A stretch of DNA of 28,940 nucleotides, taken from IMG/VR virus record IMGVR_UViG_3300017987_002324, positions 1 through 28,940 of that record. One strand, written 5' to 3'. Each line of letters starts with the position of its first letter. The stretch's first letter is position 1. The notes under the pieces were generated by a model. It was not told the DNA's origin, did not search any database, and saw only the letters and a program-made list of their open reading frames with translations. Below, piece after piece: positions 18,149-21,309 of this stretch. The position numbers were made by a program, and so were the translations under genes. This stretch comes from a virus.

Positions 18149-18427
18149 TTATCCATTCGAAATTTCCCGGATCCCGTCGGCGACGACCTTTTCCGTTTCC
18201 ACGAAAAGGCTTTGCGCTGCCGTCAATTTTATAACGGCGTCTTCCAGGACCAGGATCCGGCCCTCGAGCTTGGAAATCTGGCGCTGCCCTCGGCTCCAGT
18301 ATCGATCCTTGCAATTCGAATCTGGGAAAATCGACTTCGGGCAGAATCTGGCGTTGGGATGTTTTTTGAGGAAATCCGCCGGGATCGGCCGGCCGCAATT
18401 TTTACAGACGGCCTGATCATCTTTCAT
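18149..18427 (-). CDS. Small zinc-finger protein
   Basis: A 92-residue protein, overlapping the regulator gene by 11 bases. The N-terminus has CKNCGRPIP (Cys8, Cys11), then FCPKSIFPDSNC (Cys29, Cys39), a four-Cys treble-clef-like finger; the rest is a helix with SKLEGRILVLEDAVIKL. It could bind DNA or RNA or act as a small partner of the annealing gene. A gap of about 70-100 bases follows before the next gene. Confidence 0.65.
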   Translation of the reverse strand: MKDDQAVCKNCGRPIPADFLKKHPNARFCPKSIFPDSNCKDRYWSRGQRQISKLEGRILVLEDAVIKLTAAQSLFVETEKVVADGIREISNG

Positions 18428-18578
18428 CGGCGGCCTTTTCCTGGATCCCCTTTAAAAAATCCTCGATGATTTTCCGGACCAGGCCGGAAACGCTCCGCTC
18501 CTGGCGCCGGGCGACCTCGGCCAGGCGCCGGTGCTGTTCCTCTCGGATAGTCATTGATACCTGTCTCGTTTTTTTCAT
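18417..18578 (-). CDS. Ribbon-helix-helix transcription regulator (53 residues)
   Basis: The first gene of the leftward unit. ATG at 18578 follows AAAGGATG. The product begins MKKTRQVSMTIREEQHRRLAE, i.e. a beta ribbon (VSMTI) followed by two helices (EEQHRRLAEVARRQ and VSGLVRKIIEDFLKG), the CopG/Arc fold. Such proteins bind short repeated operators as dimers. The divergent promoters and direct repeats at 18662-18720 next to it are likely targets, so it may repress its own and the rightward transcript. This is inference from position. Confidence 0.8.
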   Translation of the reverse strand: MKKTRQVSMTIREEQHRRLAEVARRQERSVSGLVRKIIEDFLKGIQEKAADER

Positions 18579-18615
18579 ATCGTCATCCTTTCAAAATAAA
18601 ATTTCTCACACTATA

Positions 18616-18644
18616 AATTTAATCCATTTTTACATGAATGTCAA
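18616..18644 (-). promoter_or_regulatory. Leftward sigma70-type promoter
   Basis: TTGACA at 18644-18639, 17-base spacer, TAAATT at 18621-18616 on the minus strand. It lies 38 bases before the RHH gene and would start the leftward early transcript. The -35 matches perfectly; the -10 matches four of six. Confidence 0.7.
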
Positions 18645-18661
18645 TAAAAAATATTAGGTTC

Positions 18662-18720
18662 GGATAAATTGCTTCCCATATTTTTTTTAATTAATATTAT
18701 TTAATATGGATAATTTGCTT
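18662..18720. promoter_or_regulatory. Operator-like repeats in the AT-rich divergent control region
   Basis: Two direct repeats, GGATAAATTGCTT at 18662-18674 and GGATAATTTGCTT at 18708-18720, differ at one base and are 46 bases apart; the second overlaps the -35 box of the rightward promoter. Between them CCATATT (18676-18682) and AATATGG (18703-18709) form an inverted repeat. A half copy GGATAAA follows at 18728. These suit binding by the adjacent RHH regulator. Confidence 0.6.
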
Positions 18721-18747
18721 GACAAACGGATAAAAAAAACGTATATT
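18719..18747 (+). promoter_or_regulatory. Strong rightward sigma70-type promoter
   Basis: TTGACA at 18719-18724, a 17-base spacer and TATATT at 18742-18747. The transcript would start near 18754 and read into the rightward genes. The 5' end would carry the small hairpin at 18756-18770. Confidence 0.82.
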
Positions 18748-18755
18748 AAGAGTGT

Positions 18756-18770
18756 CCCCCAGGTTGGGGG
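18756..18770 (+). promoter_or_regulatory. 5' leader hairpin (CCCCC-AGGTT-GGGGG)
   Basis: Five C-G pairs around a five-base loop sit 9 bases after the -10 box, so the rightward RNA would begin almost exactly with this stem. Stems at a 5' end can protect RNA from decay. No T-run follows, so it is not a terminator. Confidence 0.5.
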
Positions 18771-18863
18771 ATGAGATCTTTGAAAAATAAAACGCGACTC
18801 GTCAAACCTGACGGGCGCCTCTCCTCCCTGGCCATCGAATCGGGCGATAAGGTGAAAACCTGA
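18771..18863 (+). CDS. Doubtful 30-residue leader peptide
   Basis: ATG directly follows the GGGGG of the leader hairpin, so the ribosome site has no spacing. The frame begins MRSLKNKTRLVKPDGRLSSL. It may be a chance frame in the leader; the region to 19028 otherwise holds the first hammerhead-like ribozyme. Confidence 0.2.
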   Translation: MRSLKNKTRLVKPDGRLSSLAIESGDKVKT

Positions 18864-18934
18864 GAATCGAAAGTTTGCCCAGGGGATCCAGGACGGCGCC
18901 TGGTGCCAGTTCGACGGGGACCGAAACATCGAAA

Positions 18935-18998
18935 GTCGAAACCGGGATCCGATGGGATCCTGGTCGTCCGGGGTTGATCGTCCGGACCTGATGATGAC
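18935..18998 (+). ncRNA. Type II hammerhead ribozyme-like element, copy A
   Basis: The order fits a hammerhead with open stem II. GAAA at 18938-18941; stem III of ten pairs, 18941-18950 with 18955-18964, loop GATG; cleavage dinucleotide TC at 18964-18965; stem I, GTCCGG with CCGGAC (18966-18971/18982-18987), ten-base loop; CTGATGA at 18988-18994. Stem II is GTC with GAC, but an extra T at 18995 must bulge, which may weaken it. The predicted cut is after 18965, 62 bases before the GTG start at 19028. Stems I and III differ in sequence from copies B and C but keep pairing. Confidence 0.72.
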
Positions 18999-19027
18999 AG
19001 ATCAAATTTTCTTTTCTGGAGGATATC

Positions 19028-19570
19028 GTGATTATCACTATTCGGAATGATTTCCATGGCACGGAGTCCCGGATCCGGGTCAAGGCCCTTCCCGCGGTCC
19101 TGACGGATTCCCAGGTTCGCCGCGTCCGGCGTGAATTGTGCGGGATGGCGGATTGTCGATGCGGCGGCGTTCTGAATCAGCGGGGACAGCAAGACGTTTG
19201 GATCGATTCCATCCTGAGAGGCGACGGGTCGACCTGGGTCGAGATTTCCCGCCCGTCCAGAAACACCATGCGGATTTCAAAAGACATGATCGACCGCGTC
19301 CGGCATGTCATCAAAAACTACGACTCGGACAGCGAAGAATATTTTCGGCTGCGGGATTTTCTCGCCGTCGCCCGGGCGACGGAAGTTTATTACCCGGTCG
19401 AACACGTCAAACGGATCGCCTGGGTTTTCTGTACGGCTCTTTCCGGCCGGGAAGAGTGCGAAATTTTCGGCCTGGGGGAACATTTCTGCCCGCTGGCCAG
19501 CCTGCCCGCCCTCGAAGAGCGCCGCCGTTTCCCCCGGTGTCCCCTTGCGCCGGCGGACTCGGATATCTGA
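19028..19570 (+). CDS. Rightward gene, 180 residues, with NDFHGTE and CGMADCRCGG motifs
   Basis: GTG at 19028 follows GGAGG after the first ribozyme element. The N-terminus (IRNDFHGTESRIRVKALPAV, then SQVRRVRRELCGMADCRCGG) matches a short motif I have seen in small phage and bacterial proteins of unknown function, with three cysteines that could bind metal. The middle is a charged helical domain. The C-terminus has two more cysteines and a proline/arginine-rich tail. It is the first gene of the rightward group. A function cannot be given. Confidence 0.72.
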   Translation: MIITIRNDFHGTESRIRVKALPAVLTDSQVRRVRRELCGMADCRCGGVLNQRGQQDVWIDSILRGDGSTWVEISRPSRNTMRISKDMIDRVRHVIKNYDSDSEEYFRLRDFLAVARATEVYYPVEHVKRIAWVFCTALSGREECEIFGLGEHFCPLASLPALEERRRFPRCPLAPADSDI

Positions 19571-19578
19571 TCGAACCC

Positions 19579-19649
19579 GGGCGCTGGTCCTTCCTTTCCC
19601 GTAAACCCCCTGCTAATACAAGCTTTCACCAGCGCCCGCTTTTTCTTTT
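19579..19649 (+). terminator. Terminator-like long-loop hairpin after the first rightward gene
   Basis: GGGCGCTGG (19579-19587) pairs with CCAGCGCCC (19629-19637) around a 41-base loop, followed by GCTTTTTCTTTT. The T-rich tail runs directly into stem II of the next ribozyme copy. The long loop makes full termination uncertain; partial read-through would feed the downstream ribozyme. Confidence 0.6.
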
Positions 19650-19711
19650 GTCGAAACCGGCCCGCCCGGGCCGGTCCTCCGGACCTGACCGCCCGGGGCT
19701 GATGAGACAGG
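19647..19711 (+). ncRNA. Type II hammerhead ribozyme-like element, copy B
   Basis: Full match to the hammerhead core with open stem II: TGTC (19649-19652), GAAA (19653-19656), stem III of CCGGCCC/GGGCCGG plus A-T with loop GCCC, TC cleavage site at 19675-19676, stem I CTCCGG/CCGGGG with one G-T pair and a ten-base loop, CTGATGA (19699-19705), then GACA (19706-19709) closing stem II, extendable by two G-T pairs. The predicted cut is after 19676, 61 bases before the GTG at 19738. Compensatory differences from copy A in stems I and III support folding. Confidence 0.85.
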
Positions 19712-19741
19712 TCAAAACCTTTTCTCTGGAGGATGTCGTGA
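19647..19741 (+). repeat. 95-bp perfect direct repeat, copy 1 of 2 (other at 20481-20575)
   Basis: The ribozyme-like element, the CAGGTCAAAACC spacer, the GGAGG ribosome site and the GTG start plus one base are identical in both copies. Sequence before and after differs. A more diverged third copy covers about 18935-19030. Exact identity suggests recent duplication or gene conversion of a leader cassette. Confidence 0.93.
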
Positions 19742-19902
19742 TGAATCGGAATTATCAGACCAATGTCAACCGGGATCGGGACCGCGTCCGGCTCTCGGAT
19801 CTGGATCGGCGGATCCTGCGGATCGCCCAGGGCGAAAAAAACCGCGTCCGCCAGGACCGCGTCCGCCGGCGCCGGGATGATTTCATGGGGGCGGGCCAAT
19901 GA
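19738..19902 (+). CDS. Small Arg-rich protein, 54 residues
   Basis: GTG at 19738, directly followed by ATG at 19741, stands 6 bases after GGAGG in the repeated leader. The protein is very rich in Arg and Asp, with a repetitive middle (RDRDRVRLSDLDRRILRI and RVRQDRVRRRRDD) suggesting a charged helix that may bind RNA. Its stop overlaps the next start as ATGA. No family is recognised. Confidence 0.6.
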   Translation: MMNRNYQTNVNRDRDRVRLSDLDRRILRIAQGEKNRVRQDRVRRRRDDFMGAGQ

Positions 19903-20120
19903 GCGACCGGCCGGAATATTGGCTTTTTTCGAAGGAATCCGGGAAAATCATCCAGGACGGCGGCCTTTTCAACCGCCGCTCGCTTTTCGCCGCCTGCCCT
20001 CACGCCATTTCAAAAGCCGTCATTTTGAAAAGGACCGTCCAGGTCGTGGGGACGGTCGGGGATGTCCGCCGGGTTGTCGCGGAATTCCATGGCGCCCAGA
20101 TGTCCCGGCTCGTGAAATAG
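19899..20120 (+). CDS. Small hypothetical protein, 73 residues
   Basis: ATGA overlap with the previous stop and a normal stop 3 bases before the next gene. It reads as a small alpha/beta protein (WLFSKESGKIIQDGGLFNRR, then a helix and VGTVGDVRRVVAEFHGAQ) with one cysteine. No family is recognised. Confidence 0.62.
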   Translation: MSDRPEYWLFSKESGKIIQDGGLFNRRSLFAACPHAISKAVILKRTVQVVGTVGDVRRVVAEFHGAQMSRLVK

Positions 20121-20123
20121 GCG

Positions 20124-20402
20124 ATGCCTAAAAAAAACTTTTGGGCGGCGATGGTTTCCGGCTTAAAGCGTGAATGTCCGGAAAGGGATCCCGGGGCGTT
20201 TGTTTCCGGCTGCTGCGGGGCCGAAATCAATTATTTTTCCAGGGGGCCCGGGTCGATGTCCGGGCCCTCGGATCCGGTCGCCTATTGTTCGCTTTGTGAT
20301 CGCCGCTGCAGAAAAATCTGGCTGACGGTCGATGAAATCCGCGCCATGGAATCCGGCGAAAAATCTTTTTCGGATATCCTGAACGATTCCGATCTCTTTT
20401 GA
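20124..20402 (+). CDS. Small zinc-binding-like protein, 92 residues
   Basis: The start lies 3 bases after the previous stop. Cysteines at CPERD, GCCGAE and CSLCDRRC form a likely zinc site; the C-terminal helix WLTVDEIRAMESGEKSFSD is acidic. It may be a small adaptor or regulator. No known family is identified. Confidence 0.6.
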   Translation: MPKKNFWAAMVSGLKRECPERDPGAFVSGCCGAEINYFSRGPGSMSGPSDPVAYCSLCDRRCRKIWLTVDEIRAMESGEKSFSDILNDSDLF

Positions 20403-20412
20403 TCGATTCCAT

Positions 20413-20483
20413 GCGGGCGCCGGCGCTTCCATCAAATCCCCCTTTTTGCTTATTTTCCCAGCCGGCGCCCGCTTTTCTCCTTT
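20413..20483 (+). terminator. Terminator-like hairpin before ribozyme copy C
   Basis: GCGGGCGCCGGC (20413-20424) pairs perfectly over 12 bases with GCCGGCGCCCGC (20461-20472), loop of 36 bases, followed by TTTTCTCCTTT. It has the same plan as the hairpin at 19579 with a different stem, so hairpin plus ribozyme recurs as a unit. Confidence 0.6.
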
Positions 20484-20545
20484 GTCGAAACCGGCCCGCC
20501 CGGGCCGGTCCTCCGGACCTGACCGCCCGGGGCTGATGAGACAGG
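20481..20545 (+). ncRNA. Type II hammerhead ribozyme-like element, copy C
   Basis: Identical in sequence to copy B: TGTC (20483-20486), GAAA (20487-20490), stem III, TC at 20509-20510, stem I, CTGATGA (20533-20539) and GACA (20540-20543). The predicted cut is after 20510, 61 bases before the GTG at 20572. Confidence 0.85.
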
Positions 20546-20575
20546 TCAAAACCTTTTCTCTGGAGGATGTCGTGA
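20481..20575 (+). repeat. 95-bp perfect direct repeat, copy 2 of 2
   Basis: Identical to 19647-19741 throughout; it carries ribozyme copy C, the ribosome site and the GTG start of the next gene. Confidence 0.93.
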
Positions 20576-20820
20576 ATAAGAAAAAAACCTATTTGCTGCT
20601 GTGTCATGTTTGCGGGCGGCCCTTTCGCCTGAAATCGGATTTTCTATCTGTTAGTTCCGTTCATATCCGCCGCCGCGGCGTGCTTCGAAGTTACGGCCTG
20701 GGGACCTGTAACATGGCCGACGTTCACGCTGGGCGGCCTGGGACCCATTCCCAGGATGAAATCGAGGCGTCGTTTTGGGGCGGTCCGTCGGCGGATCTTT
20801 TTGCCTTGTATACGAAATAG
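20572..20820 (+). CDS. Small Cys-motif protein, 82 residues
   Basis: GTG 6 bases after GGAGG, in the repeated leader. The N-terminus CHVCGRPFRLKSDF is a CxxC knuckle, with another Cys later (GTCNMAD), so a zinc site is possible. The middle, SSVHIRRRGVLRSY, is basic and could bind nucleic acid. It is followed after 9 bases by the DUF6166-like gene. Confidence 0.62.
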   Translation: MNKKKTYLLLCHVCGRPFRLKSDFLSVSSVHIRRRGVLRSYGLGTCNMADVHAGRPGTHSQDEIEASFWGGPSADLFALYTK

Positions 20821-20829
20821 GGAGGCGTC

Positions 20830-21309
20830 ATGAATCCTCAAAAAGTTTATGCGATTTCGAGAGAAAAAAAAGGCGTCCGGGCGACCGTCCGGATGACCAT
20901 CCCCCCCGCCGGCCGCGGCTCGATGCCGCTGCCGCTCCATCATGTCGTCCGGCATTCCCCGGATGGCTTCAATTTCGGATATTCTGGATCCGGGCCGTCG
21001 GACCTGGCGCTTTCGATCCTGTGGGATTGCTTCGGGAAAATCGTTGCGGAAGAGTTTTACGTCGATTTCCGCGACCATTTCCTCAAGCCGATCGCCGACG
21101 ACATCAAGGCGTTTTCCATCACTCAATCGGAGATCGAAAATTGGATCGCCCCCATGGGCGCCCGCCTCTTAAAGCTCGCTGAAAGGGCTCGGGAGAATTC
21201 GCTGATCGATGCCCAGATCCCAGATGACGCCTGGGAAATCATATCCGCGGCCATCAAGCCGGACGCCGTCTTCGATCCGGACGCTCCGGCCGGCCGCCGG
21301 TTTTCCTGA
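20830..21309 (+). CDS. DUF6166-like protein, 159 residues
   Basis: The start follows GGAGG. Residues around 38-62 read HHVVRHSPDGFNFGYSGSGPSDLALSIL, close to the signature I know for the DUF6166 domain (short strands, a GYSGSGP turn and a helix), followed by a helical region ending in FRDHFLKPIADDIKAF. DUF6166 proteins are common in phages and plasmids, but their role is unknown. The C-terminal third is helical and acidic. The gene is the last of the rightward group, followed by a strong terminator. Confidence 0.75.
   Translation: MNPQKVYAISREKKGVRATVRMTIPPAGRGSMPLPLHHVVRHSPDGFNFGYSGSGPSDLALSILWDCFGKIVAEEFYVDFRDHFLKPIADDIKAFSITQSEIENWIAPMGARLLKLAERARENSLIDAQIPDDAWEIISAAIKPDAVFDPDAPAGRRFS

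Follow-up and report, generated by a model that had tools for sequence, protein, structure and literature searches.

The window, i.e., the whole stretch of DNA analyzed here (28,940 bases), represents a complete IMG/VR virus record. Its genes are mostly directed leftward, except for a short rightward island, the operon in which three type II hammerhead ribozyme-like elements (copies A, B and C) were found (Table 1). The three elements lie within 1.6 kb, with gene blocks of one, three and at least two genes. The promoter-like site listed is the only strong one 5' of the array, and the divergently oriented ribbon-helix-helix protein is a candidate regulator of the operon. Upon scanning of genes 1 and 3-6, PHROGs gave no family for any of them, and the sole Pfam match was DUF6166 in gene 6, genes 1, 3, 4 and 5 being left without a family. 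A homologue of gene 1 was encountered only in a near-identical record (see below); four records contained a homologue of gene 6, and the more distant three among them had no hammerhead match.

Table 1. Features of the rightward operon and its vicinity (window coordinates)
Feature	Position	Strand	Evidence and details
Ribbon-helix-helix (CopG-like) protein, 53 aa, divergent	18417..18578	-	Pfam RHH_7 E 3.8e-4, RHH_5 E 5.1e-4, neither reaching the curated cut-off
Promoter-like site TTGACA-17-TATATT	18719..18747	+	11 of 12 consensus matches; candidate on sequence alone
Hammerhead A, type II with one inserted U at 18995	18935..19005	+	RF02276 match 18934-19006, E 1.3e-6; predicted cut 18965^18966, first base past it 18966; stem I 18966-18971/18982-18987; CUGAUGA 18988-18994; pseudoknot 18974-18979 with 19000-19005
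Gene 1, 180 aa	19028..19570	+	ORF, family searches; GTG start 62 nt past cut A; GGAGG 19018-19022
Hairpin, 11 bp, 39-nt loop, then U-rich tract adjoining hammerhead B	19578..19638	+	-22.6 kcal/mol, z -3.7
Hammerhead B, type II, standard core	19650..19715	+	RF02276 match 19649-19716, E 2e-6; predicted cut 19676^19677, first base past it 19677; stem III 19656-19663/19668-19675; stem I 19677-19682/19693-19698; CUGAUGA 19699-19705; pseudoknot 19686-19690 with 19710-19714
Gene 2, 53-54 aa, basic	19738..19902	+	GTG 19738 or ATG 19741
Gene 3, 73 aa, overlapping the end of gene 2	19899..20120	+	ORF, family searches
Gene 4, 92 aa	20124..20402	+	ORF, family searches
Hairpin, 12 bp, 36-nt loop, then U-rich tract adjoining hammerhead C	20413..20472	+	-30.1 kcal/mol, z -5.5
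Hammerhead C, sequence identical to B	20484..20549	+	RF02276 match 20483-20550, E 2e-6; predicted cut 20510^20511, first base past it 20511
Gene 5, 82 aa	20572..20820	+	ORF, family searches; GTG start 61 nt past cut C
Gene 6, 159 aa, DUF6166	20830..21309	+	PF19663 E 1.7e-17

The near-identical record, IMGVR_UViG_3300029258_001641 (G001), shares 99.97% identity with the window over 10.5 kb and carries the same three hammerheads. Since no variation was observed between the two over positions 18600-20900, it adds no covariation. The record extends the genome with genes of a tape measure protein, a capsid-like protein and an XkdF-type protease, which indicates a tailed phage. Close to these structural genes, sulfotransferase-like and PLP-enzyme genes were noticed (locus L132, G001:15000-34388), an unusual cargo in a tailed phage. 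A distant blastn search of the region against the INPHARED phages returned no matches.

Inspection by eye of the leader of copy A (18771-18935) revealed a possible 30-codon leader peptide starting from ATG 18771, as well as an open frame in another phase that runs on past the stop of this peptide and through the ribozyme; the latter may point to a broken gene or else to a frameshift. A strong hairpin with a U-rich tract precedes both copy B and copy C, the arms before C matching those before B with compensating change of the A-U to C-G type. These hairpins may act as leaky terminators, in which case read-through or antitermination would be needed, or as 3' protectors of the upstream RNA; being terminator-like, they imply that transcription may end before both hammerheads.

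Structure of the three hammerheads

A cmscan search of the window with all Rfam models gave exactly three matches, all on the plus strand and all to RF02276 (Hammerhead_II), with scores of 46.1 bits for copy A and 45.4 bits for each of copies B and C, i.e., above the gathering score of 37, and the window contained no match to any other Rfam family. The three type II elements of the first-pass annotation, which had named a covariance-model search as its check, were thereby recovered. Direct reading of the pairs also reproduced, in all three copies, the circular order that it had described. The 5' half consists of the stem II strand GTC, GAAA, stem III with a 4-nt loop and the UC cleavage site, and the 3' half of a 6-bp stem I with a 10-nt loop, CUGAUGA and the stem II strand GAC. 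This is the order of type II, where stem II is open and stems I and III are closed by loops (10 and 4 nt, respectively).

The type II core is defined by CUGANGA, GAAA, the A15.1-U16.1 pair and a cleavage base other than G; CUGAUGA, GAAA, A15.1-U16.1 and C17 as the cleavage base are present in all three copies. A full hammerhead core had been claimed for each of them, which holds for B and C, where stem II (GTC/GAC) follows directly after A9, but not for A, in which an extra U (18995) separates CUGAUGA from stem II, so that the stem is reached only past a one-base bulge. Neither this insertion nor the pseudoknot between loop I and the 3' tail (TTGATC/GATCAA in A, TGACC/GGTCA in B and C) had been recorded in the first-pass annotation.

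Comparison of A with B revealed changes on both sides at three stem III pairs, one stem I pair and one pseudoknot pair; all pairs of stems I and III are kept, whereas an outer pair of the pseudoknot is missing from B. The compensatory change proposed between A and the other two copies is thus upheld. B and C are an exact and recent duplication of 95 nt (19647-19741), ribosome site included and adjacent genes different, and hence make one independent observation; two independent sequences are available rather than three. Chance is excluded by the absence of elements fitting a strict structural descriptor from shuffles of like sequence (1.2 Mb and 2.4 Mb), together with the presence of the same three elements in the near-identical record. 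When the pseudoknot was ignored, the predicted hammerhead fold of B reached -26.7 versus -28.4 for the best fold, and that of A -29.4 versus -32.4. The GTG codons at 19028, 19738 and 20572 are located 62, 61 and 61 nt past the predicted cuts A, B and C, in agreement with the 61-62 bases given before; the gene behind copy B may start instead at ATG 19741, 64 nt past the cut.

Placement of related elements and the inserted-U core

Related elements were collected with the pattern GTCGAAAC..GTC..CTGATGAGAC, which carries no gene information. It was present in at least 120 stretches of viral contigs and in 39 stretches of a one-genome-per-species set, the latter spanning Firmicutes, Proteobacteria, Desulfobacterota, Spirochaetes, Patescibacteria and one Lokiarchaeota MAG. 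Elements within the fetched loci were located by the strict structural descriptor, and redundancy was removed by downstream DNA, resulting in 177 elements among the matches listed.

A Shine-Dalgarno sequence and a start codon occurred 45-75 nt past the cut in 126 of these 177 non-redundant elements, compared with 6.9% of random same-strand positions (binomial p ~1e-103), and the start-codon distance among the matches listed peaked at 52-63 nt. Such a start was found on the same strand for 147/179 viral elements versus 5/172 on the opposite strand, and none of 218 loci had elements on both strands (again among the matches listed). In the same listed matches, 190 of 379 elements begin -2 to +5 nt from the stop codon of an upstream ORF with 60 or more codons, compared with 4.4% expected at random; TAGTC is read in 105 of 403, which allows the G of a TAG stop to belong to stem II as well; a pseudoknot of at least 4 Watson-Crick bp is formed in 141 of 177 against a mean of 40 with permuted tails; and a median of 6 nt separates the pseudoknot from the Shine-Dalgarno sequence. 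With the element placed at the upstream stop and the Shine-Dalgarno sequence so close, the ribozyme fills the whole space between the two in about half of the cases. Together with the Rfam calls and the gene placement in the window, these statistics bear out the view of type II hammerheads as leaders of small genes. Such stop-to-start placement across unrelated phages points to mRNA processing ahead of each gene.

In the window, about 80 nt separate copies B and C from the previous stop, in contrast to the compact half of the survey. A general terminator ahead of each hammerhead was considered and rejected, as the base composition upstream of the surveyed elements contains no U tract; the hairpins before B and C are therefore a local feature.

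Single virus records contain up to 15, 11, 10 and 9 type II hammerheads by Rfam. They form dense gene-ribozyme-gene arrays with many neighbours one gene apart, in which successive elements usually differ in stems I and III. The first-pass annotation had found it unusual that several genes in a single operon should be led by tandem hammerheads, which was not supported: arrays of 3 to 15 are common among the matches listed, and tandem hammerheads flanking small prophage genes already appear in PMC3088659. Four phage records (L287, G005:25500-37500; L288; L289; L290) exhibit 9 to 15 consecutive type II hammerheads, and in their compact stretches the stop codon of each gene touches the next ribozyme while the Shine-Dalgarno sequence follows directly after the pseudoknot. 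The first downstream genes mostly lack a known family; those recognized encode MoxR-type ATPases, DUF932, ArdA, superinfection exclusion proteins and RusA, and none of the 25 of 62 matched PHROGs listed for them is a structural family. A contig binned as Candidatus Lokiarchaeota (L154) has three type II hammerheads, each 5' of a gene, and may represent an archaeal virus or a binning error.

The insertion found in copy A recurs. To collect further such cores, a second pattern was used in which CTGATGA is followed by one free base; it matched 87 viral stretches. One inserted base before stem II was present in 149 of 403 distinct elements among the matches listed (U in 136, A in 7, C in 6), a proportion that is not a natural frequency, as the loci were chosen by two patterns. 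Among the same matches, a start codon lies within 45-75 nt in 118 of 143 inserted-base elements, with the same spacing as in the standard ones, and the pseudoknot is about as frequent (85% versus 83%); some arrays consist of the inserted-base form only, whereas both forms occur side by side in 14 loci, a mixture also seen in the window.

Possible roles of the array

Judging from sequence and placement, the three type II hammerheads are probably intercistronic processing sites within a short rightward accessory operon of a tailed phage. Such a role is favoured by the RF02276 scores, the compensatory change between A and B, the placement and strand bias in the survey, the pseudoknot, the dense arrays and the published cleavage of tandem arrangements (see below); the core insertion in copy A, the hairpins and the wide gap before B and C, the small gain in Shine-Dalgarno exposure, and best predicted folds (computed with the pseudoknot left out) that are slightly better than the hammerhead count against it. 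RNA started from the promoter near 18719-18747 would fold into each ribozyme as the latter emerges and cut itself at the predicted sites, thus freeing downstream mRNAs of 711 nt (gene 1) and 834 nt (genes 2-4), then one with genes 5-6. Each mRNA would begin at stem I with a 5'-OH and no unpaired 5' bases, the Shine-Dalgarno sequence being a few bases further on, and stem I would stay locked by the pseudoknot between loop I and the tail. Both strands of this pseudoknot are on the 3' side of the cut, which leaves just the 3-bp stem II to connect the halves; these should therefore part after cleavage, and the upstream RNA would depart with the stem III hairpin as its 3' end. The likely outcome would be separate, defined and 5'-protected mRNAs, whose translation and lifetime would be independent of the upstream gene; it is in this sense that we infer cleavage at the locus, release of the products, their stability and an effect on expression. 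A 5'-terminal stem-loop is known to stabilize mRNA in Escherichia coli (Emory et al., 1992, as listed in PMC7509114).

The mean predicted exposure of the Shine-Dalgarno sequence was 0.51 in the cleaved RNA against 0.44 and 0.46 in the controls (0.46 in the uncleaved RNA). As exposure is barely higher upon cleavage, we give stability and uncoupling more weight than activation of translation, a benefit that this modelling weakly suggests. Sequestration of the Shine-Dalgarno sequence was also considered as a general mechanism and rejected: the 5' strand of stem I in B and C (CTCCGG) is by direct reading complementary to the Shine-Dalgarno region (CTGGAG), but such a complement is seen neither in A nor in most relatives, and mean exposure is near-equal in the cleaved product, the uncleaved RNA and other genes.

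The location of half of the surveyed elements (among the matches listed) at an upstream stop, where a terminating ribosome would cover the 5' strand of the ribozyme, would also suit a regulated switch, in which a protein, a metabolite or that ribosome sets the folding, and cleavage raises or lowers expression of the downstream gene. The CTCCGG strand of B and C fits such a switch too, and a regulatory role is left open in PMC3088659. However, the CTCC complement is missing from copy A and most other elements seen, the elements have short loops and no added ligand-binding domain, and copies B and C of the window are situated well beyond the previous stop. Considering these facts, we regard a switch as unlikely.

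The identity of B and C bears on two further readings. Two successive cuts would release a segment with matching ends (834 nt, from B to C), which the hammerhead could then ligate into circular RNA. Hammerheads are capable of ligation, as happens in viroids and retrozymes. Here, however, only the 3-bp stem II would hold the ends, with the pseudoknot wholly on one side, and successive array elements usually do not match in stems I and III; spliced or circular products were sought by Perreault et al. and none were found (PMC3088659). We consider circularization very unlikely. The exact duplication, with the ribosome site inside it and different genes beside it, would equally be expected if the elements were passengers of duplicated gene cassettes, retained as shared recombination sequence and not for cleavage. 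Yet the stems and the pseudoknot are kept by compensatory change, both between A and B and among very different phage elements, which argues against passengers, since shared recombination sequence would not need pairing; this reading, too, is very unlikely.

Processing of the transcript thus stands as the preferred reading, and it yields sharp predictions as to RNA ends, product sizes and the effect of a dead ribozyme, for which any one array suffices. A broader proposition, which we think may equally well hold or fail, is that type II hammerheads are a general punctuation of phage operons, occupying the stretch between one gene's stop codon and the next gene's Shine-Dalgarno sequence, with about 15 per genome at most, that would yield self-cut, gene-sized mRNAs with identical protected 5' ends, and that the U-insert sub-form, copy A included, is a functional core variant making up whole arrays in some phages.

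Relation to known hammerheads

Tandem type II hammerheads by small phage genes have been known since 2011. That work (Perreault et al., 2011; PMC3088659) describes type II hammerheads, their pseudoknot and their clustering in prophages around single genes or short gene blocks, and already proposes processing as the way in which long phage transcripts give rise to mRNAs the length of an operon or a gene. According to the same text, the pseudoknot between loop I and the tail occurs in most type II hammerheads and is needed for fast cleavage, three tandem arrangements cleave in vitro, and a triple array cleaves in vivo in E. coli. In a 2017 review (PMC6155905), which repeats the observation of small ORFs flanked by hammerheads, the role that these ribozymes play in bacteria and phages is termed an open question. 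Stop-to-start packing is not stated in the part of PMC3088659 available; quantified stop-to-start placement, arrays of up to 15 and the recurrent inserted U were not found in the open literature, supplementary alignments aside, and may in part be known already.

The elements of the window resemble RF02276 and the type II hammerheads of PMC3088659 in core, permuted order, short open stem II, closed stems I and III, pseudoknot, phage or prophage setting and Rfam scores above gathering, and differ in the one U between CUGAUGA and stem II of copy A. The closest arrangements in PMC3088659 are prophage clusters, namely the triple array around ardA in Agrobacterium tumefaciens and those of Azorhizobium caulinodans and Clostridium scindens, where several hammerheads likewise flank small genes of phage operons; the window differs from them in its genes and in the hairpin and U tract before B and C, and related arrays among the matches listed have up to 15 elements in a single virus record. 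HHphage of the haloviruses HF1 and HF2 (same source) also lies just 5' of an early gene, with a mapped 5' end within 3 nt of the predicted cut, but it is a single ribozyme of archaeal viruses, has a variant core and stands 13 nt from the start codon.

The RiboJ-type insulators used in synthetic biology (mentioned in PMC12857756) work in a similar way, as a hammerhead in the 5' leader strips the upstream sequence ahead of the ribosome site. These are engineered, and the likeness is a functional analogy, not membership. RiboJ was derived from the sTRSV hammerhead, which is not of type II.

A viroid hammerhead with an extra core nucleotide has been described (De la Pena and Flores, 2001, as cited in PMC3705267). 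Like copy A, this CChMVd ribozyme is a natural one with a single extra nucleotide in the catalytic core. The nucleotide is reportedly placed between A9 and 10.1, the same position as in copy A, and is said to be an A in a type III hammerhead, whereas the insert in the surveyed type II elements is mostly U. The recurrent U insertion presents a natural core variant, the activity of which is amenable to measurement.
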